Assembly: GCF_030580955.1 (NCBI RefSeq)
Contig: NZ_JAUQON010000004.1
Span: 124,001 to 188,000, forward strand
From: Hymenobacter convexus
GTDB lineage: Bacteria > Bacteroidota > Bacteroidia > Cytophagales > Hymenobacteraceae
Length of the DNA: 64,000 nt
Direction of reading: 5' to 3'
Under the pieces are notes generated by a model. That model searched no databases, had not been told where the DNA came from, and saw nothing but the letters and a program-made list of their open reading frames with translations. Below, in pieces: positions 7,891 through 58,021 of this stretch. Position 1 is the stretch's first letter; every line of letters begins with the position of its first letter. Made by a program: the position numbers and the translations under genes.

Positions 7891-7997
7891 GGAACGTCAT
7901 GCAGCGCGCCGCGAAGCATCTTTACCTCGATGCTAATTCAATCAGAAGGGTTTACTACTGCGGTAAAGATGCTTCGCGGCGCGCTGCATGACGTTCC
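7891..7997. repeat. Family 1 palindromic element, copy 1
   Basis: Two perfect 36-nt inverted arms (7891-7926 and 7962-7997) surround a 35-nt AT-richer centre. The arms carry the family core CGTCATGC...GAAGCATC but have the variant AGCGCGCCGCG in the middle; both arms share this variant exactly. Confidence 0.9.
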
Positions 7998-11700: not shown

Positions 11701-11800
11701 TAGAACGTCATGCTGAGCGAAGTCGAAGCATCTCTACCGAGCAAGTAAATAATTACCATTGCAGTAGAGATGCTTCGACTTCGCTCAGCATGACGTTCTA
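11701..11800. repeat. Family 1 palindromic element, copy 2
   Basis: Perfect 37-nt inverted arms (11701-11737 and 11764-11800) around a 26-nt centre. The middle variant is GAGCGAAGTCGA, matched exactly in both arms. It lies between the acs start and the MHS transporter stop. Confidence 0.9.
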
Positions 11801-16220: not shown

Positions 16221-17492
16221 TCAGACCTCCTCCACGTAGTCCAGCTCCTTGCCATACGTCTCAGGCAAGGTGCTGGCGCTGAAAATGGCTAAGCTGAGCA
16301 GCACCGCGCCCAGCAGCGCGGCTGCGCCCACCATGCCCAGAGCCGGCACTTCCTTCAGGCCTTTGAATAACAACGAGACAAGCACCAGCGAGCCCCGGGC
16401 AAAATTGGGGGCCGTGGTAGCCACCGTAGCCCGGATGTTGGTGCCAAACGATTCGGCCGCCACCGTCACGAACAGTGTCCAGAAGCCGCCGGCCATGCCC
16501 ACCAGAAAGCACGCGAAATAAAACGCCGCCACGCTGGCCCCGTTCAGCCCAAACAAAAACCACGCAACCGCCACCGCGCTGGCCACGAAAAAGTAGCGCA
16601 GCACTCGCAGCCGGCTGCGCAAAAGCTGTCCCAGCGCCCCGCTGGTAAAATCACCCAGCGTGCACCCCAGGTAGCACCAGGCAATGCTGGCGCCGCCCGT
16701 CACGGCCCCTTGCAGGTGGAAGGCCCGGCCAAATTCGGGGGCCAGCGTAATGAGAATACCGGCCATGAACCAGAACGGCACGCCTAGCAGCAGGCAGCGC
16801 AGGTATTTCGAGGCCCGGAAGCGGTTGGCGAACAAGCTCAGGAAATTGCCCCGCGCCACGCTGGCTTGCCGGGTGTGCTCAAACATGCCCGATTCGAACA
16901 CGCCCGCCCGCAGGGCCAGCAACGCCAAGCCCAGCCCGCCGCCCATAAAATAGGCGTTGCGCCAGCCAAAATGCTCGCCCACCCAGTACGCCAGCAGCGC
17001 ACCCGGCACCCCTACCGACGTGACTAGCATGGTACCATAGCCGCGCTTTTCTTTCGGCAGGGTTTCGGCCACCAGCGTGACACCCGCGCCCAGCTCGCCG
17101 GCCAGCCCGATGCCGGCAATCAGCCGCAACCAGGCGTACTGGTCCACCGTCTGCACGAAGCCGTTGGCGATGTTGGCCAGCGAATACAGCAGAATCGAGC
17201 CAAACAGCACCGAGAGCCGGCCGCGCTTGTCGCCCAGCATGCCCCAAAACAAGCCCCCGAGCAGCATGCCGCCCATCTGCATGTTCATCAGATAGAGGCC
17301 CCTGCTCGTCACCTCCGCCGGGTCGCTGATGCCAAGGTCGTGCAGGCTCTGCACGCGCACAATGCCAAAGAGCACCAGGTCGTAGAGGTCGACGAAATTG
17401 CCCAGCGACGCCACCAGCACAATGGCGCTGAAGACGCCTACAGCGGGACGGACGGTAGCAGGCGGAGTGAGTAGCGGTTGATTCACGGGCAA
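16221..17492 (-). CDS. MFS transporter
   Basis: The 423-residue inner-membrane protein has 12 hydrophobic segments. It has an N-terminal NFVDLYDLVLFGIV, like the MHS/SHS signature, a loop 2-3 motif GMLGDKRGRLSV and a mid motif LRLIAGIGLAGELGAGV. Sugar-acid or carboxylate symport is the likely class; the substrate cannot be read from the sequence. It is divergent from the flavin reductase-like gene, with a Family 2 palindrome in the shared upstream region. Confidence 0.82.
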   Translation of the reverse strand: MPVNQPLLTPPATVRPAVGVFSAIVLVASLGNFVDLYDLVLFGIVRVQSLHDLGISDPAEVTSRGLYLMNMQMGGMLLGGLFWGMLGDKRGRLSVLFGSILLYSLANIANGFVQTVDQYAWLRLIAGIGLAGELGAGVTLVAETLPKEKRGYGTMLVTSVGVPGALLAYWVGEHFGWRNAYFMGGGLGLALLALRAGVFESGMFEHTRQASVARGNFLSLFANRFRASKYLRCLLLGVPFWFMAGILITLAPEFGRAFHLQGAVTGGASIAWCYLGCTLGDFTSGALGQLLRSRLRVLRYFFVASAVAVAWFLFGLNGASVAAFYFACFLVGMAGGFWTLFVTVAAESFGTNIRATVATTAPNFARGSLVLVSLLFKGLKEVPALGMVGAAALLGAVLLSLAIFSASTLPETYGKELDYVEEV

Positions 17493-17515: not shown

Positions 17516-17604
17516 GTAGCGCGGACTTTTAGTCCGCGAGGCGCAACTGAAAACCACTTGGCTGCACATCGGCTTGAAAAGCGCGGGCTAAAAGCCCGCG
17601 CTAC
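17516..17604. repeat. Family 2 palindromic element, intergenic copy with compensated arms
   Basis: The left arm (17516-17538) and right arm (17582-17604) are inverted copies that differ at two positions. In each arm the two differing bases pair with each other (CGCGGACT/AGTCCGCG versus CGCGGGCT/AGCCCGCG), so each arm keeps its own hairpin. It lies between the divergent MFS and flavin reductase genes. Confidence 0.85.
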
Positions 17605-17631: not shown

Positions 17632-18540
17632 ATGGCCGATTTCCACTCCCTCACCCCCGCCGACCTCACGCCCGCTCAGTGGCACCCGTTTCTGGTGGGC
17701 GCCGTGGCTCCGCGCCCCGTCGCCTTCGCCAGCACCGTCGATGCCGAAGGCCGCGTGAACCTGAGCCCCTACAGCTTCTTCAACGCCTTCAGCTCCAACC
17801 CGCCCATTCTCGTGTTTTCGCCCGCCAACCGCGTGCGCGACAACACCCAGAAACACACCCTGCAAAACGTGCGCGAAGTGCCCGAAGTCGTCATCAACAT
17901 CTGCGACTTCGCGCTGGTCGAGCAGATGTCGCTGGCCAGCACCGAGTACGGCAAGGGCGTCAACGAATTCACCAAAGCCGGCCTCACAGAGCTGGCCTCC
18001 GAGCAGGTGCGCCCGCCCCGCGTGGCCGAGGCCCCGGCGGCTTTCGAGTGCGTGGTAGAACAGATTATCGAACTGGGCCAGAACAACGGCGCGGGCAACC
18101 TCATCATCTGCCGCGTGGTGCGCGCCCACTTCCGCGAGGATATCCTCCTGCCCAACGCCACCGGCATCGACCCCTTCAAGCTCGACGCCGTGGCCCGCCT
18201 CGGCGGCGATTGGTATTGCCGGGCCAGCAGCGCCAGCCTCTTCGAAGTACCCAAGCCTAACCGCCACATCGGCATCGGCTTAGACCAGCTACCCGAGCAC
18301 CTGCGCAACTCCAACGTCCTCACCGGCAACGAGCTGGGCCGCCTCGCCAACATCGAGCGCGACGCCCTGCCCACATCGGCGCAAGTGGAGGAATTTAAAT
18401 CCGAGCCAATGGTGGCTTATCTAATTAATAAATACCGCGACGACGCACCGGAGCTCCAGAAACAATTACTGCAACTGGGGCGACAGTTTCTAGCCGAAGG
18501 GCGGCTGGTGGAGGCGTGGAAGGTATTGCTATTGTATTAG
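17632..18540 (+). CDS. Flavin reductase-like, FMN-binding split-barrel protein
   Basis: The 302-residue cytoplasmic protein has the flavin reductase-like split-barrel fold: VGAVAPRPVAFASTVDAEGRVNLSPYSFF is the typical beginning (given here only as a start near residue 22), then SSNPPILVFSP and NICDFALVEQM. The C-terminal third, beyond the fold, is helical. Such proteins bind FMN and reduce it with NAD(P)H or serve as partner of a monooxygenase; no partner oxygenase is nearby, so the role is open. It converges on the MCE lipoprotein gene. Confidence 0.83.
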   Translation: MADFHSLTPADLTPAQWHPFLVGAVAPRPVAFASTVDAEGRVNLSPYSFFNAFSSNPPILVFSPANRVRDNTQKHTLQNVREVPEVVINICDFALVEQMSLASTEYGKGVNEFTKAGLTELASEQVRPPRVAEAPAAFECVVEQIIELGQNNGAGNLIICRVVRAHFREDILLPNATGIDPFKLDAVARLGGDWYCRASSASLFEVPKPNRHIGIGLDQLPEHLRNSNVLTGNELGRLANIERDALPTSAQVEEFKSEPMVAYLINKYRDDAPELQKQLLQLGRQFLAEGRLVEAWKVLLLY

Positions 18541-20372: not shown

Positions 20373-20482
20373 AGAACGTCATGTTGAGCGCAGCCGAAGC
20401 ATCTCTACCGCGCAACTCTAATCCCGACGATTGGATTACTTGCGCGGTAGAGACGTTTCGGCTGCGCTCAACATGACGTTCT
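20373..20482. repeat. Family 1 palindromic element, copy 4
   Basis: 43-nt inverted arms (20373-20415 and 20440-20482) with two mismatches. The variant is TGTTGAGCGCAGCCGAA in both arms. It lies between tsaE and ald. An AT-rich run of about 50 bp precedes it. Confidence 0.9.
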
Positions 20483-28471: not shown

Positions 28472-28563
28472 GCGCAAAGTTTCGCAAAGTGAAAAGAGGT
28501 TTCGCAAGGCCGACAGAACGTCAAACCTTGCGAAACCTCTTTTCACTTTGCGAAACTTTGCGC
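28472..28563. repeat. Perfect 38-bp inverted repeat filling a convergent junction
   Basis: Arms 28472-28509 and 28526-28563 are perfectly complementary with a 16-nt loop. The sequence is built from the word TTTCGCAAAG/GTTTCGCAAGG. It starts the base after one stop codon and ends one base before the other. It could act as a bidirectional terminator. Confidence 0.85.
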
Positions 28564-31642: not shown

Positions 31643-31783
31643 CCGTCATGCTGAGCGCAGTCGAAGCATCTCTACCGCAATACTAAATCCTGTCGGCTGA
31701 ATTAGTTGAAAGGTAGAGATGCTTCGACTTCGCTCAGAATTAGTTGAAAGATAGAGATGCTTCGACTGCGCTCAGCATGACGT
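31643..31783. repeat. Family 1 palindromic element, copy 6, right arm duplicated
   Basis: The left arm starts at 31643. The right arm occurs twice in tandem as 38-bp units (31700-31737 and 31738-31775) differing at two bases. The distal unit has GACTGCGCT and pairs with the left arm; the proximal one has GACTTCGCT, as in copy 2. Confidence 0.85.
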
Positions 31784-35289: not shown

Positions 35290-35290
35290 C

Positions 35291-35372
35291 TTCAATGGGC
35301 AATGGTCAATGAGCAATCAGGTTTTGACTGCTCATTGACCATTGCTCATTGTTCATTGCTCATTGCCCATTG
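35291..35372. repeat. Inverted repeat between lpxA and the ABC ATPase gene
   Basis: An inner perfect 16-bp pair (35300-35315 and 35329-35344) and an outer 12-bp pair (35293-35304 and 35361-35372) are built from the words CAATGAGCAATG and CAATGGGCAATG. The right side holds extra units. It reaches into the probable start codon of the next gene. Confidence 0.75.
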
Positions 35373-35993
35373 TTAATTGAAGCCAACGGCCTGGGAAAGC
35401 GCTTTCAGCGCGACTGGATTTTTCGGGAGCTCACGCGGGTGTTCCGGCCGGGCAGCGCCACGGCTGTGCTCGGGCCCAACGGCGCCGGCAAAAGCACGCT
35501 GCTTAATACTATTTCGGGCCAGCTGCTACCCACCGAGGGCACGCTAAGCTATGCGCTGGCCGGCCGGCCGGTGGCCGTGGAAGACGTGCCCCAACACCTG
35601 GCCTACGCCGCGCCTTACCTAGAGCTGCTGGAGGAACTGACGCTGCTGGAGCTGCTGCAATTTCACACCCGGTTCAAGCCGCTGCAAGCCGGCGTATCGC
35701 TCGACAAGCTCATTGCGATAATGTACCTCGAAAAGGGCCGCCACCAGCTGGTGCGCGAGTTTTCGTCGGGTATGAAGCAGCGCCTGAAGCTAGGCCTGGC
35801 TCTGTACGCCGAGGCCCCCCTGCTCCTGCTCGACGAGCCCACCACCAACCTCGACGCCACCGGCGTAGCCTGGTACCAGGAGCACGTGCAGGCCACCCGC
35901 GCGGGCCGCACGCTGCTACTCAGTTCCAACGTGCCGGCTGAATACGGCTTTTGCGACGAGCAATTGCTAGTGACGGATTTTCAGAAGCGGTAG
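35370..35993 (+). CDS. ABC transporter ATP-binding protein
   Basis: The 207-residue ATPase has Walker A GPNGAGKST, a Q-loop region, the signature FSSGMKQRLKLGLAL, and Walker B LLLLDEPTTNLD. It is a bare nucleotide-binding domain without membrane part; the permease is not next to it. I choose the TTG that gives MLIEANGLGKRF, a natural beginning for the fold. This start is inside the inverted repeat; an upstream TTG would add 7 repeat-encoded residues. It converges on the ADP-ribosylglycohydrolase gene. Confidence 0.83.
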   Translation: MLIEANGLGKRFQRDWIFRELTRVFRPGSATAVLGPNGAGKSTLLNTISGQLLPTEGTLSYALAGRPVAVEDVPQHLAYAAPYLELLEELTLLELLQFHTRFKPLQAGVSLDKLIAIMYLEKGRHQLVREFSSGMKQRLKLGLALYAEAPLLLLDEPTTNLDATGVAWYQEHVQATRAGRTLLLSSNVPAEYGFCDEQLLVTDFQKR

Positions 35994-40016: not shown

Positions 40017-40133
40017 AGAACGTCATGCTGAGCGCAGCCGAAGCATCTCGCTAGTGATGCTAATCAAAATTGTAAAACGATTGAATTGGTGGTGGCACGC
40101 GAGATGTTTCGGCTGCGCTCGGCATGACGTTCT
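40017..40133. repeat. Family 1 palindromic element, copy 7
   Basis: 34-nt inverted arms (40017-40050 and 40100-40133) with few mismatches and a 49-nt AT-rich centre. It lies in the divergent space between the nucleotidyltransferase operon and the channel gene. Confidence 0.85.
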
Positions 40134-42252: not shown

Positions 42253-45048
42253 CTACAGCCGCGGGTCCACCGCCTCGCTTTCCAGCGCTAGGACGCCGAA
42301 GACGCACTGGTGCACGCGGCGCAGGGGCTGGCCGGCCACGAAGCGTTCGAGGCCCTCGACGCCGAGGGCGAACTCGCGCAGGGCGAGGTTGCGCTTGGCT
42401 TTCACGTTGCGCTGGCGGAGCCGGTCGAGGTGGCCGGGCAGCAGGTAATCGGGGCCGTAGATGATGCGCAGGTACTCGCGGCCCCGGCACTTGAGGGCGG
42501 GCTGGAGCAGGCCGCCTTTGCCCTGGGGGATGAAGTCGTAGGGCTTCACCACCATGCCTTCGCCCCCGGCGGCGGTGAGGTCGGTCCACCACTGGATGGC
42601 GGCTTCGACTTCGGCGGGGTTGGTGAGGGGGACGACGCGGTAGGGCGTGGCGCGGAGCAGGCCAGGGTCGGCCAGGGCGAGGGTGCGCAGGGTTTCCATG
42701 TGCCAGGCATGGTCGCGGTCGAAGTAGGTCTTGCCTTCGGTGGCTAGTAGATGGAAGGGCGCCAGCTTGAGGTCGTCGAGGGAGTGCACGGGCCAGCAGT
42801 AGCGGCGGTAGGCGTCGGCGTAATGGGCGGCGGCCTGGTGGCGGGCGGTGGTGCGGGCCAGCAGGGCTTCGGCGCCGTCGAGCTGGCGGGCGGCGGCGTC
42901 GGTGAGGGCGGCTTCGACCTGGGGCAGGGCGGCGAGGGCGGCGGCGGCCACGGCGGCGTACTGGGTTTTGACCAACTCCTGGGCTTTGGCCGACCAGGGC
43001 AGCAGCTCGGCATCGAGGCAAACCCAGTCGGTGTCGAATTTCTCCCAGAAGCCGGCGGTGCTCAGGGCGTCGCGCAGGCGGGCGAGGAAGGCGGTTTCGA
43101 GGGTGGCATCGGTGAAGAAGTTGCGGCCGGTGCGGGTGTAGCACTTGCCGATGCCCTCGCCCACGAGGCCGAGGCGGCGCTGGATGGCGGCTTCGTCGCG
43201 GCCCAGCACCACCACCACGCGGCTGCCCATGTGCTTTTCTTCGCACACCACGCGCTCTATGCCGAGGCGCTGGTAGTAGTCGAAGGCTTCGGCGGGGTGT
43301 TCGAGCAGGTCGGGCAGGGCCGAGGTTTCGGTCGGCGACATGGTGGGCGGCAGGTACAGCAGCCATTTGGGGTGCAGGGCGAAGCGCGACATCACCTCCA
43401 GGGCGGCCACGGCGTTGTCTTCGCGGATGGTGACGCCGCGCATCAGCCGGGTTTCGATGAACTGCTTGCCGGTTACGTCGCGGATGTCGAGCAGGTCGTC
43501 GTTTTCGTGCTGGGCGGACTGTAGCGCGGACTCTGTAGTCCGCGTCTCCGCGCCGTTCTCATCGTTCGGGTTTCCGCCGGGGACGCGGACTACAGAGTCC
43601 GCGCTACTGTCCGCGTTACTGCGGCGGTAGTTGAGCGGCCTGGCCGGTTCACAATAGACCTGCGCGGCGGGCACGGCCACGAGCTCGCGCTCGGGATAGC
43701 GCAGGGCGGTGAGGCGGCCGCCGAACACGCAGCCGGTGTCGAGGTCGATGGTGTTGTTGAGCCATTCGGCCTCGGGCACGGGCGTGTGACCGAAGGCGAC
43801 CATGGCGCGGCCCCTGTACTCGCGGGCCCACTCGTAGCGCACGGGCAGGCCGAATTCGTCAATCTCGCCGGTGCTTTCGCCAAACAGCGCGAAGGCCCGC
43901 ACGGCCCCCGAGCCGCGCCCCTGCATCTCCTCGGTGAGGCCGGCGTGGGCCACGACCAGCTTGCCGCCGTCGAGCACGTAGTGGCTCACTAGGCCGTCGA
44001 GGAAGCGCCGCACTTCGCTCTTGAAAGCTTCGGGCTCGGGTTCGAGCTGGGCCAGGGTTTCGGCCAGGCCGTGGTTGATGGTGACGTTTTTGCCGTTGAG
44101 GTGGCGCAGGAGCTTGATGTCGTGGTTGCCGGGCACGCAGAGGGCGCTGCCGTCGCGCACCATGCTCATCACCAGACGCAGGACCTGCGGGGAGGCGGGC
44201 CCGCGGTCCACGAGGTCGCCGAGGAAGATGGCTTTGCGGTGCGGCCCATCTGCCGTTTGTAGAGACGCGACACTTCGCGTCTCGGCGTCCGCGCCGTCGG
44301 AATCGTTGTTTGGCGAATCGTTCAACGAGGAGACGCGAAGTGTCGCGTCTCTACACACCAACGGTGCCATCACCCGCACGCCCAAATCCCGCACGTCCGT
44401 AATCGGCTCTTCCGTAATCTGATACCCCAGTTTCTCCAGCAGCGCGCGCAGCTCCTCGTAGCAGCCGTGCACGTCGCCGATGATGTCGAAGGGGCCGGTT
44501 TCCTCTTGGCGGTTGTTGTAGAGGCGGTCGCGGGTGATGGACTGGATGGCGTCGATTTCGCCCACGTTGCGCAGGTGGTGAATGTGCCGGAAGCCCTCCT
44601 GCTTGAGGTTGCGCAGGCTGCGGCGCAGCTGCTGGCGGTGGCTGGCGATGACGTGCCGGCCCAGGTGGCGGCGGTCGGGGCGCTGGGCGTTGCGCTCCTG
44701 GGCCACGGCATCGGGCACGTCGAGCACTATCGCCACGGGCAGCACGTGGTATTGGCGGGCCAAGGCCACCAGGGGCTTGCGGCCTTCCTCCTGCACGTTG
44801 GTGGCATCGACCACGGTGAGCAGCCCGCGCTTCAGGCGCTTGGCCACCAGGTAGTGCAGCAGCTCAAACGCGTCTTTGCTGGCCGATTGGTCGTTTTCAT
44901 CGTCGGCCACCAGGCCCCGGCAGGCATCCGACGACACGATTTCCGTGGGCTTGAACAAGCGCCGCGCAAACGTGGACTTGCCCGCGCCCGTGCTGCCAAT
45001 GAGAATAATAAGGGAGAGTTCGGGGACCTTGAGGGTATCTTGGGGCAT
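42253..45048 (-). CDS. pnkp: Polynucleotide kinase-phosphatase-ligase (bacterial Pnkp)
   Basis: Pnkp heals and seals broken RNA: 5' kinase, 2',3' phosphatase and 3'-5' ligase, working with Hen1. The 931-residue protein has a kinase domain with GSTGAGKST (18-26), a metallophosphatase with GDVHGC (191-196), GDLVDRG (277-283), GNHD (307-310) and AHAG (367-370), and an adenylyltransferase with EKHMGSR (604-610; Lys605 is the expected AMP acceptor). Two stretches are foreign: about 232-264 in the phosphatase between GDVHG and GDLVDRG, and about 479-512 between phosphatase and ligase. Both are translated from Family 2 palindromes and together roughly explain why the protein is longer than C. thermocellum Pnkp (about 870). 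I choose the ATG giving MPQDTLKVPE; 17 more residues are possible. It is tail-to-tail with the HEPN gene. Confidence 0.93.
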   Translation of the reverse strand: MPQDTLKVPELSLIILIGSTGAGKSTFARRLFKPTEIVSSDACRGLVADDENDQSASKDAFELLHYLVAKRLKRGLLTVVDATNVQEEGRKPLVALARQYHVLPVAIVLDVPDAVAQERNAQRPDRRHLGRHVIASHRQQLRRSLRNLKQEGFRHIHHLRNVGEIDAIQSITRDRLYNNRQEETGPFDIIGDVHGCYEELRALLEKLGYQITEEPITDVRDLGVRVMAPLVCRDATLRVSSLNDSPNNDSDGADAETRSVASLQTADGPHRKAIFLGDLVDRGPASPQVLRLVMSMVRDGSALCVPGNHDIKLLRHLNGKNVTINHGLAETLAQLEPEPEAFKSEVRRFLDGLVSHYVLDGGKLVVAHAGLTEEMQGRGSGAVRAFALFGESTGEIDEFGLPVRYEWAREYRGRAMVAFGHTPVPEAEWLNNTIDLDTGCVFGGRLTALRYPERELVAVPAAQVYCEPARPLNYRRSNADSSADSVVRVPGGNPNDENGAETRTTESALQSAQHENDDLLDIRDVTGKQFIETRLMRGVTIREDNAVAALEVMSRFALHPKWLLYLPPTMSPTETSALPDLLEHPAEAFDYYQRLGIERVVCEEKHMGSRVVVVLGRDEAAIQRRLGLVGEGIGKCYTRTGRNFFTDATLETAFLARLRDALSTAGFWEKFDTDWVCLDAELLPWSAKAQELVKTQYAAVAAAALAALPQVEAALTDAAARQLDGAEALLARTTARHQAAAHYADAYRRYCWPVHSLDDLKLAPFHLLATEGKTYFDRDHAWHMETLRTLALADPGLLRATPYRVVPLTNPAEVEAAIQWWTDLTAAGGEGMVVKPYDFIPQGKGGLLQPALKCRGREYLRIIYGPDYLLPGHLDRLRQRNVKAKRNLALREFALGVEGLERFVAGQPLRRVHQCVFGVLALESEAVDPRL
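43514..43614. repeat. Family 2 palindromic element inside pnkp (phosphatase-ligase linker)
   Basis: Perfect 26-nt core arms (43521-43546 and 43582-43607) extend by about 7 bp with one mismatch. Each arm is itself a hairpin (GCGGACT...AGTCCGC). It is open in the pnkp frame and encodes ADSSADSVVRV ... ETRTTESALQS. Confidence 0.9.
44258..44355. repeat. Family 2 palindromic element inside pnkp (phosphatase domain)
   Basis: Perfect 26-nt arms (44258-44283 and 44330-44355) around a 46-nt centre; each arm contains AGACGCGA/TCGCGTCT. In the pnkp frame it encodes CRDATLRVS ... ETRSVASLQT, between two metal-binding motifs of the phosphatase. Confidence 0.92.
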
Positions 45049-45690: not shown

Positions 45691-47179
45691 CAAATTGATT
45701 TTGTTCAGATAATCCAAACACCGCCATCTGCGAGGGCGCGCCGACGCCTTCCACCTCCTCTCCCATCCCCACGAGGCGCACCTGATACCCGTGCCGCTCA
45801 GCCACGGCGGTGGCCCAGGCCGCGAACTCGGCGCGGGACCATTCGAAGCGGTGGTCGTCGTGGCGGAATTCGCCGACGTTTAGCTTTTCGAAGAGCTGGT
45901 TGTAATCGGCGTTGGGGGTGGTGACGAAGACGTGCGCCGGGCGGGCCTGGCCGAACACCACGGCTTCGAGCGCGGCGAGGCGGTTGGGGTCGAGGTGCTC
46001 GATGACTTCGACCAGGGCCGCCGCGTCGAAGCCGGCGAGGCGGTCGTCGCGGTAGAGCAGCGAACCCTGGATGAGGTCGAGGCGGGTGCGCTGGCGCGGG
46101 GGCATCTCGTCGAGGTGCAGGCGCTGGGCGGCGCGGGCCAGCGCCTGGTGCGACACGTCCATGCCGAGGATGTACTCGATTTTGGGCTGGCGCAGGAGCA
46201 GCCGCAGCAGTTTGCCTTCGCCGCAGCCTAGGTCGAGTACGCGCTTGGGGGCGAGTTGGTAGATTTCGTGGGCGACTTGCTGGAGGCGCTGGTCGTGGAG
46301 GGACGATTTGGGCTGTAGCGTGGACTCTGCGAGTCCGCGCATTGTATCACTTGGTTGTGCCATTTGCGGCTGCGCAGTTTCTACGGCTCCGCTTGCTTCC
46401 TCATCCATGCGCGGACTCGCAGAGTCCACCCTACTGACCTCTTCCCCCTCCATCAGCCGCTCCAGCGTCGGGTTCACATACGCCGCCAGGTAGCGCAGGT
46501 ACCGCCGCGTGATGAAGCCGCGCTCCGGGTGCTGGGGCAGCCAGTCGCCGCCGCGGTGCAGCAGTTTCTCGGCCTCGTGCTCGCCGATGTAGTAGTGCTT
46601 GTCGTTGTCGAGCACCGGGAGCAGGACGTAAAGGTGCGTGAGCACGTCCTGCAGGCGAAGACCGGCGTGGCGCAGGTGCAGGGTGTAGTAGCGGCTGTCG
46701 CCCCACTCCTGCACGGTGGGGTCGAGCGGGGTGGTTTCGGTTTCGACCTCGTAGCCCAGCGGCTCGAAGAGGCGGCGCGGCCAGTCGGGGCCGGGCGCGG
46801 AGACTACGGCCACTTTCACAGCCAGCGGCAGGGCCTGGGCGGGCAGGTCCGGCTTGTCTTTGCAGGTGCCGTTCATGGCCGTGCCGAAGGCTTTGCTCAG
46901 GGCCGCGCTCAGGAAGGACGAGGCCACGTAGGGCCGGTCGTTCACGTATTGCTCCAGGGCAAAGCCTTCGCCGGATGCGCCGGCCCGGCCGCGCACGAGG
47001 CCGATTGGGTCGAGGTCGAGCAGCAGGGCGGCGGTGCAGCGCTCGGCGGTGGCTTCGGGGTAGAAGACGTGGGCCTGGCCGCCGGCTACTTCGATGCTCT
47101 GCAGGCGTGCGGGATTCTTGTGCAGCAGATAGCCCAGGTCGGTGGCGGGCTGGTAGGTGGTGGAGATGGTGAGGAGCAT
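45674..47179 (-). CDS. hen1: 3'-terminal RNA ribose 2'-O-methyltransferase Hen1
   Basis: Bacterial Hen1 methylates the 2'-OH at the 3' end of cleaved RNA before Pnkp seals it, which protects the mended site. The 501-residue protein has the Hen1 N-terminal domain (MLLTISTTYQPATDLGYLLH), known in homologues to activate Pnkp ligase. A linker of about 41 residues (249-289) follows, then the methyltransferase: SAM motif VLDLGCGEGKLLRLL, metal-binding EVIEHL, and the later His in FRHDDHRFEWSR. The linker is translated from a Family 2 palindrome; without it the length is near 460, usual for the family. I start at the ATG that matches the family N-terminus; the frame is open 39 codons upstream. The last few codons overlap the convergent lipoprotein gene. 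Confidence 0.94.
   Translation of the reverse strand: MLLTISTTYQPATDLGYLLHKNPARLQSIEVAGGQAHVFYPEATAERCTAALLLDLDPIGLVRGRAGASGEGFALEQYVNDRPYVASSFLSAALSKAFGTAMNGTCKDKPDLPAQALPLAVKVAVVSAPGPDWPRRLFEPLGYEVETETTPLDPTVQEWGDSRYYTLHLRHAGLRLQDVLTHLYVLLPVLDNDKHYYIGEHEAEKLLHRGGDWLPQHPERGFITRRYLRYLAAYVNPTLERLMEGEEVSRVDSASPRMDEEASGAVETAQPQMAQPSDTMRGLAESTLQPKSSLHDQRLQQVAHEIYQLAPKRVLDLGCGEGKLLRLLLRQPKIEYILGMDVSHQALARAAQRLHLDEMPPRQRTRLDLIQGSLLYRDDRLAGFDAAALVEVIEHLDPNRLAALEAVVFGQARPAHVFVTTPNADYNQLFEKLNVGEFRHDDHRFEWSRAEFAAWATAVAERHGYQVRLVGMGEEVEGVGAPSQMAVFGLSEQNQFASQSH
46315..46434. repeat. Family 2 palindromic element inside hen1 (interdomain linker)
   Basis: 28-nt arms (46315-46342 and 46407-46434) with one mismatch, each containing GGACT...AGTCC. 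It is in frame with hen1 and encodes SRVDSASPRM ... MRGLAESTLQP, between the Pnkp-activating and methyltransferase domains. Confidence 0.9.
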
Positions 47180-47953: not shown

Positions 47954-48031
47954 TGTAGCGTGGACGCTGCGAGTCCGCGCATAGGCGGATGACGGCCGGA
48001 CGATGCGCGGACTCGCAGCGTCCACGCTACA
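47954..48031. repeat. Family 2 palindromic element at the GH1 stop codon
   Basis: Perfect 29-nt arms (47954-47982 and 48003-48031) around a 20-nt centre. The right arm supplies the TAG stop of the convergent GH1 gene; the left arm begins the base after the stop of the + strand gene. Confidence 0.92.
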
Positions 48032-57806: not shown

Positions 57807-57910
57807 AGGCCGTCATGCTGAGCAAAGTCGAAGCATCTCTACCGTGGGAGTAATCCAGTCGATTCAACGAAGCGGTAGAGATGCTTCGACTTTGCTCAGC
57901 ATGACGGCCT
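57807..57910. repeat. Family 1 palindromic element, copy 10
   Basis: Perfect 38-nt arms (57807-57844 and 57873-57910). The middle variant is GAGCAAAGTCGA, in both arms. It is followed 5 bp later by another long palindrome. Confidence 0.92.
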
Positions 57911-57915
57911 TTTCC

Positions 57916-57991
57916 AAGTAATCAGCCCTAAAAAGCAGCAAGACCCGGAAAACTTTTTCCGGGTCTTGCTGCTTTTTAGGGCTGATTACTT
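57916..57991. terminator. Perfect 37-bp palindrome with a 2-nt centre
   Basis: Arms 57916-57952 and 57955-57991 are perfectly complementary. The core GACCCGGAAAA/TTTTCCGGGTC with A and T runs looks like an intrinsic terminator, but the stem is far longer than needed. It follows the helicase gene and precedes a gene in the same direction. Confidence 0.75.
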
Positions 57992-58021
57992 GCTTTTTCT
58001 GCGAATAATTCCTCCGTTATT

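Follow-up and report, generated by a model that had tools for sequence, protein, structure and literature searches.

The element at positions 17516-17604 of the window (the whole 64,000-nucleotide stretch of Hymenobacter convexus DNA that was analyzed) is very probably a REPIN, a non-autonomous head-to-head dimer of GTAG-type REPs whose hairpins have been kept through recognition by a RAYT (REP-associated tyrosine transposase), a domesticated transposase. A compensated change distinguishes the two arms of the element, and our best reading of that change is selection for a hairpin that the enzyme recognizes. Each arm, as single-stranded DNA, would be the substrate recognized and cleaved by a RAYT, for example that of a gene at another locus of the genome which has a dimer of this family on either side. 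Copies with unpaired arms would be poor substrates and would not be copied further, and arms that were copied or kept would tend to have either an unchanged stem or a stem in which any change had been compensated. Binding and cleavage of the arm by the RAYT, and mobility of the element, are inferred by analogy with the published biochemistry of other RAYTs.

Anatomy of the element

Direct reading and a repeat search gave two inverted 23-nt units that face each other. The left arm (17516-17538, plus strand) reads GTAG-CGCGGACT-TTT-AGTCCGCG and the right arm (17582-17604, minus strand) reads GTAG-CGCGGGCT-TTT-AGCCCGCG, each forming an 8-bp stem with a TTT loop. Between them is a spacer of 43 bp (17539-17581, no strand assigned). 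The sole difference between the arms is at stem pair 6, which is A-T in the left arm (A17525-T17533) and the compensated G-C in the right arm (G17587 and C17595 on the plus strand). Both hairpins are perfect, which bears out the claim of the initial annotation that the arms differ at two bases that pair within each arm. Its placement of the element between divergent genes was likewise correct. The element is intergenic, with a gene for an MFS transporter (PF07690, 79.9 bits) at 16221-17492 on the minus strand and one for a flavin-reductase-domain protein (PF01613, 71.1 bits) at 17632-18540 on the plus strand. When 17516-17604 was folded as DNA, both arm hairpins were present in the minimum-energy structure (-25.4 kcal/mol) and in the centroid; the z-score of the fold was -4.26, and none of 200 shuffled sequences folded equally well.

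The repeat family across the genome

The family is dispersed and of high copy number. A strict pattern for the arm matched 171 times in the genome, with no match to the reversed pattern used as a control, and the first-listed arms were spread over ten contigs. The arrangement of the arms was surveyed in a sample of 855,318 bases (855 kb) that comprised the window, contig C12 in full, and six stretches selected because they were known to contain arms. This sample contained 98 arms, arranged as 39 head-head pairs, 1 tail-tail pair, 11 head-tail pairs, and 13 double-foot pairs. Since head-head dimers hold 77 of the 98 arms, the dimer is the unit of the family. The median length of 40 sampled dimers was 79.5 bp.

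The GTAG tag was evaluated by a scan of the 855 kb for exact 8-bp hairpins directly behind a given tetranucleotide. There were 73 such hairpins behind GTAG and 0-3 behind each of seven control tags. The stem was CGCGGACT in 43 of the GTAG hairpins and CGCGGGCT in 1, for a total of 44; a further 2 of the 73 had the stem CGTGGACT, and most of the remaining ones belong to a second hairpin family, described below. In a set of 79 sampled arms, the tag was GTAG in 76, GTAA in 2, and GCAG in 1; selection of this set was based on a left half in which the tag is included, and up to 3 mismatches were allowed in each dimer. The loops of these arms all start with T or C, and TTT accounts for 37 of them. 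The stem is 8 bp with a 3-nt loop, except in a TGC-loop subtype in which it is 9 bp.

The repeat search found a second dimer of the REPIN family in the window at 43521-43607 (no strand). A third, at 46315-46434, is of the T·G subtype (CGTGGACTC TGC GAGTCCGCG) and, in its right arm, pair 1 contains an unpaired change. A fourth, also of the T·G subtype, lies at 47955-48030 and has the same uncompensated T-to-G change at pair 8 in both of its arms. Both arms of another dimer (L186, 10862-10934) likewise share an uncompensated change at pair 8. These two cases indicate that a change can affect both arms of a dimer jointly, and in some dimers rare variants are common to both arms.

The RAYT gene and its relatives

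A search of the genome with the Pfam Y1-transposase family listed two proteins. The first is encoded by an open frame (locus L001, 1429-2046) that lies between two dimers, at 1349-1432 and 2034-2119, and touches both. Its score against the NCBIfam REP-associated tyrosine transposase was 81.7 bits, which narrowly passes the cut-off of 80. By sequence, the closest solved structure is TnpA-REP (4er8, E value 3e-6). The same structure was the top match to the predicted fold of a relative from H. siberiensis that is 87% identical to this RAYT, with an aligned rmsd of 7.1, which is a loose overall superposition. The HUH motif (NHVH), FWQ, and the Tyr are conserved. No ATG, GTG, or TTG was found upstream of the conserved YYERNLPH motif, and the first candidate start is a CTG (L001 1989-2046, minus strand). 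Expression of the gene is therefore uncertain, and the frame may have an unusual start or may be impaired. We saw no REPs inside the gene. The second Y1 transposase (locus L002) was set aside, having scored 57.1 bits against the cut-off of 80 and having no arms of the family around it.

The RAYT has 138 relatives in named genomes, of which we took the best 80. Hymenobacter came first among these 80, followed by other Bacteroidota, Chloroflexi, Ignavibacteria, and others. A lenient scan found GTAG hairpins beside 57 of these best 80 of 138 relatives. In an exact test, which required all 8 pairs to be perfect and allowed loops of 2-4, a hairpin directly behind GTAG occurred in the flanks of 48 of the same 80 loci. 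The corresponding number for GTAA was 21 of 80, and every remaining tag was found at 8 loci at most. The position of GTAA as the second tag before perfect hairpins suggests that it is a tolerated variant. Stem letters vary between the RAYT loci while pairing is kept; since these hairpins were chosen as paired, the evidence here is the comparison of tags and not the pairing. The RAYT of one Ignavibacteriales locus (L085), which is 42% identical to that of H. convexus, is flanked by nearly the same REP (GTAGCGCGGACTTTTAGTCTGCG), and all three of the arms listed there have the same G·T wobble.

Within the genus, strict arms were present in 60 of 120 genomes, the source genome included. A RAYT match at 60% identity or higher was present in 23 genomes, and 21 of these had 10 or more arms, versus 26 of the 97 others. 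The latter 26 genomes indicate that the arms need no close RAYT gene today.

History of this copy

The dimer is also present in a congener (G024), where the flanking genes are the same and pair 6 carries the same double change, so the double is probably older than the split between the two genomes. Comparison of the two copies showed no change in 46 arm bases and 5 changes in the 43 bases of the spacer (Fisher 0.023). Over a 210-bp comparison, 32 of the 164 non-arm bases, in the spacer and flanks, had changed versus none of the 46 in the arms (Fisher 2.9e-4).

This conservation would also be expected if the hairpins acted as RNA in the 5' leaders of both divergent genes, for example in transcript stability or translation, and the element does occupy most of the gap between the two starts. 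We nevertheless consider an RNA role highly doubtful. Arms of this kind are also found beside RAYT genes and at many sites unrelated to this one, and two relatives of the locus, L135 and L137, in which an MFS gene of about 76% identity lies upstream of the same flavin-reductase gene, have no arm in the locus.

The right arm could also have come by recombination from another subfamily with GGGCT/AGCCC stems, in which case nothing was compensated at this site. Such arms do exist, with 27 of them in 20 of the 120 genomes. This origin is quite unlikely, however, given that the right arm is the only match to the G-C pair-6 pattern in the source genome. In G024, the G-C arm with a TTT loop is the orthologous copy itself, the remaining two having TC loops.

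At the orthologous site of another genome, G055 (L165), the left flank matches that of H. convexus as far as the base that precedes GTAG, and the match resumes on the right. The REPIN is absent there and a Family 1-like insertion (Family 1 is described below) lies in between, so the G055 site is not a clean empty site, and no other was found. The gap has thus been used by two repeat families, the REPIN in H. convexus and the Family 1-like repeat in G055.

Covariation within the genome

Arms for the covariation analysis were gathered by the likeness of each half to the consensus and never by pairing. One of 80 arms was dropped, and the 79 used gave 632 stem cells, of which 591 are Watson-Crick pairs, 15 are mismatched, and 26 are wobble pairs, 25 of these last belonging to the T·G subtype at pair 3. 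Outside that subtype there are 20 changed cells, 16 of them uncompensated (15 mismatches and 1 wobble) and 4 compensated. The 4 compensated doubles in the 79 arms occur at 3 loci. One is the element at 17516-17604. The second is a dimer (L184, 15212 and 15333) in which a rare change from G-C to T-A is found in both arms, and the third is a G-C to A-T change in an otherwise degenerate arm (L124, 13886). When the right halves were shuffled 20,000 times, the mean number of doubles was 0.13 and the maximum 3, so that no shuffle reached the observed 4.

The initial annotation held that the within-arm hairpin had been preserved, proposed that arm-internal pairs be checked for covariation across copies, and took random differences in most other copies as evidence to the contrary. 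Our results are divided on these points. Doubles do exceed chance, but 16 of the 20 changed cells are uncompensated, and taken literally the random differences are therefore partly what we see, with 4 compensated cells nonetheless. Preservation is favored by the doubles and by the recurrence, in several phyla, of the unit of GTAG and 8-bp stem adjacent to RAYT genes. Since uncompensated changes predominate in the other copies sampled, it is a statistical and not a strict preservation.

The main rival to selection is self-templated (quasi-palindrome) correction, in which a single change in one half of an arm is transferred to the opposite half through template switching at the hairpin during replication. 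The double change would then be a single mutational event for which selection is unneeded. The process is known to act on short perfect palindromes. Such an origin would fit two observations: the pattern of the G-C arm is matched just once in the source genome, and both arms of the L184 dimer share one rare double. A single locus by itself cannot separate it from selection.

Stem pairs 6 and 7 across the genus

Pair 6 was A-T in 1637 arms, G·T in 70, A·C in 42, and G-C in 27 across the 120 genomes. The 27 G-C doubles compare with 3.8 expected from pooled independence (odds ratio 15, nominal Fisher 4e-18) and with 9.8 expected when the expectation is summed per genome. Since the per-genome expectation is 9.8 and not 3.8, part of the excess reflects shared ancestry or subfamilies. 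The p-values for pair 6 are nominal, because arms are not independent of one another, either inside one genome or among related genomes. Chance, in the sense of two neutral changes that arose separately and turned out to be complementary, is almost certainly not the explanation for the double at 17516-17604. Most of the other changes are indeed unpaired singles, as this would predict, but neither the shuffles of the H. convexus arms nor either expectation for the genus yields as many doubles as are observed.

The counts also bear on self-templated correction, since the two intermediates, G·T and A·C, are each commoner than the G-C double. In addition, the share of A·C among A-T and A·C arms was 14/1051 in genomes with a close RAYT versus 28/628 in the rest (0.0003 by permutation of genome labels), and fewer mismatched pair-6 arms in close-RAYT genomes is not something that self-templated correction predicts. 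For G·T there was no clear difference, with 37 beside 1037 A-T arms in close-RAYT genomes versus 33 beside 600 (Fisher 0.078). Both of these comparisons with RAYT are post hoc, having been conceived once the counts were known. Taking the evidence together, we regard self-templated correction as unlikely to be the source of the compensated change, and selection for an enzyme-recognized hairpin as the better reading.

The lower frequency of mismatched pair-6 arms in close-RAYT genomes fits a more specific mechanism, which we offer tentatively and do not favor, in which the copying step passes through the folded arm and the presence of a cognate RAYT is required for stems to be corrected or purged. 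If this is true, genomes that have lost their RAYT should show the decay of hairpins no longer under selection.

The palindrome has its own clean control for strand-specific selection built in, as the neighboring bases are the same on either side of each pair. If the GTAG strand alone were folded, G·T singles should outnumber A·C. This was the case at pair 6 (70 versus 42, binomial p 0.010), and it held after palindromic and same-dimer duplicates had been removed by hand (63 versus 38, p 0.0165). The polarity at pair 7 was opposite, with 23 T·G versus 36 single C·A arms (37 C·A rows, one of which has a second change; some double-foot copies are counted on both sides and were kept in). The bias is therefore not general, and we make no claim of strand-specific selection on a folded GTAG strand.

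Other repeats in the window

The second GTAG hairpin family is represented in the window by a dimer at 44259-44354 (AGACGCGA / TCGCGTCT, with a 4-nt loop). The 855 kb contain 17 exact arms of this family and 6 of a compensated variant, AGACGCAA. It was absent from the repeat lists of both Y1-transposase loci of the genome.

Family 1 is another inverted-repeat family, with copies in the window at 7891-7997, 11701-11800, 20373-20482, 31644-31782, 40017-40133, and 57807-57910. A typical arm has GTAG near one end and CGTC, on the other strand, near the other end. In the 855 kb, 43 arms match one pattern, and the one arm that was folded gave a weak structure on both strands. The likeness of Family 1 to CGTC-tagged REPs is in the tag only.

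There are also two inverted repeats of 38 nt, both perfect and unrelated in sequence, at 28472-28563 and 57915-57992, with gaps of 16 and 2 nt, respectively. Nested short repeats of the CAATGGGCAATGGTCAATG type occur in both orientations at 35290-35382.

Comparison with known systems

REPINs and RAYTs have been best studied in the gammaproteobacteria. The system is now found in a genus in which 60 of 120 genomes are carriers, some of them with many arms but no close RAYT. This makes Hymenobacter a natural experiment on whether the enzyme keeps hairpins intact.

The REPINs described by Bertels and Rainey (2011, PMC3116915) are dispersed inverted-repeat dimers of short palindromes with RAYT genes close by, and compensatory changes in their hairpins were termed common. 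The Hymenobacter element resembles those REPINs in being a dimer of inverted palindromes, in the lower conservation of its spacer relative to its ends, and in the proximity of RAYT genes to copies of the family. It differs from the REPINs described there in host, in stem sequence, and in spacing, given the median dimer length here.

According to Di Nocera et al. (2013, PMC3733652), GTAG REPs have stems mostly of 6-9 bp, and up to 13, with many loops of 2-3 nt. Head-head is the commonest dimer in most of those families, RAYTs are found nearby, and there are subfamilies with alternative complementary stem bases. The Hymenobacter family agrees with this description in its GTAG foot, 8-bp stem, 3-nt loop, head-head dimers, and RAYT. 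The main text of that paper, its figures aside, names the Bacteroidetes once, among the hosts of CGTC REPs, and does not include Hymenobacter.

RAYT subclass 2.4 (group 4), as described in PMC6006769, is known from the Bacteroidetes and is associated with long canonical and double-foot REPs. The Hymenobacter RAYT is similar in its NHVH motif (of the form NH[IFV]H) and its WQ, and the double-foot pairs of the family, 13 in our sample, are a further likeness. It is unlike the subclass as described there in having YVLENP in place of YIxNNP and in the REPs inside the gene, which were not seen here.

The REPtron Sm of Stenotrophomonas maltophilia (PMC8266576) has a 23-nt REP with GTAG, a perfect 8-bp stem, and a 3-nt loop, and this REP is cut by its RAYT. 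The Hymenobacter REP is the same in these four features of its anatomy. In that system the complementary strand is uncut, and a mismatch near the middle of the stem affects cleavage or almost eliminates it. The first base of the loop, a G, is crucial there, whereas 79 of 79 loops here begin with T or C. The RAYT of REPtron Sm belongs to group 3, whereas no test placed the Hymenobacter RAYT in a group.

In the library searched, Hymenobacter was not joined in any paper with REPs or RAYTs under their full names, or with REPINs under that name. For REPINs with RAYTs in the Bacteroidetes, the matching papers are both among those compared above, and for compensatory changes in REPs of that phylum the match was a paper on structured RNAs. 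What looks new here is the host group and the repeat family, compensatory changes in REP stems having already been published for other systems.
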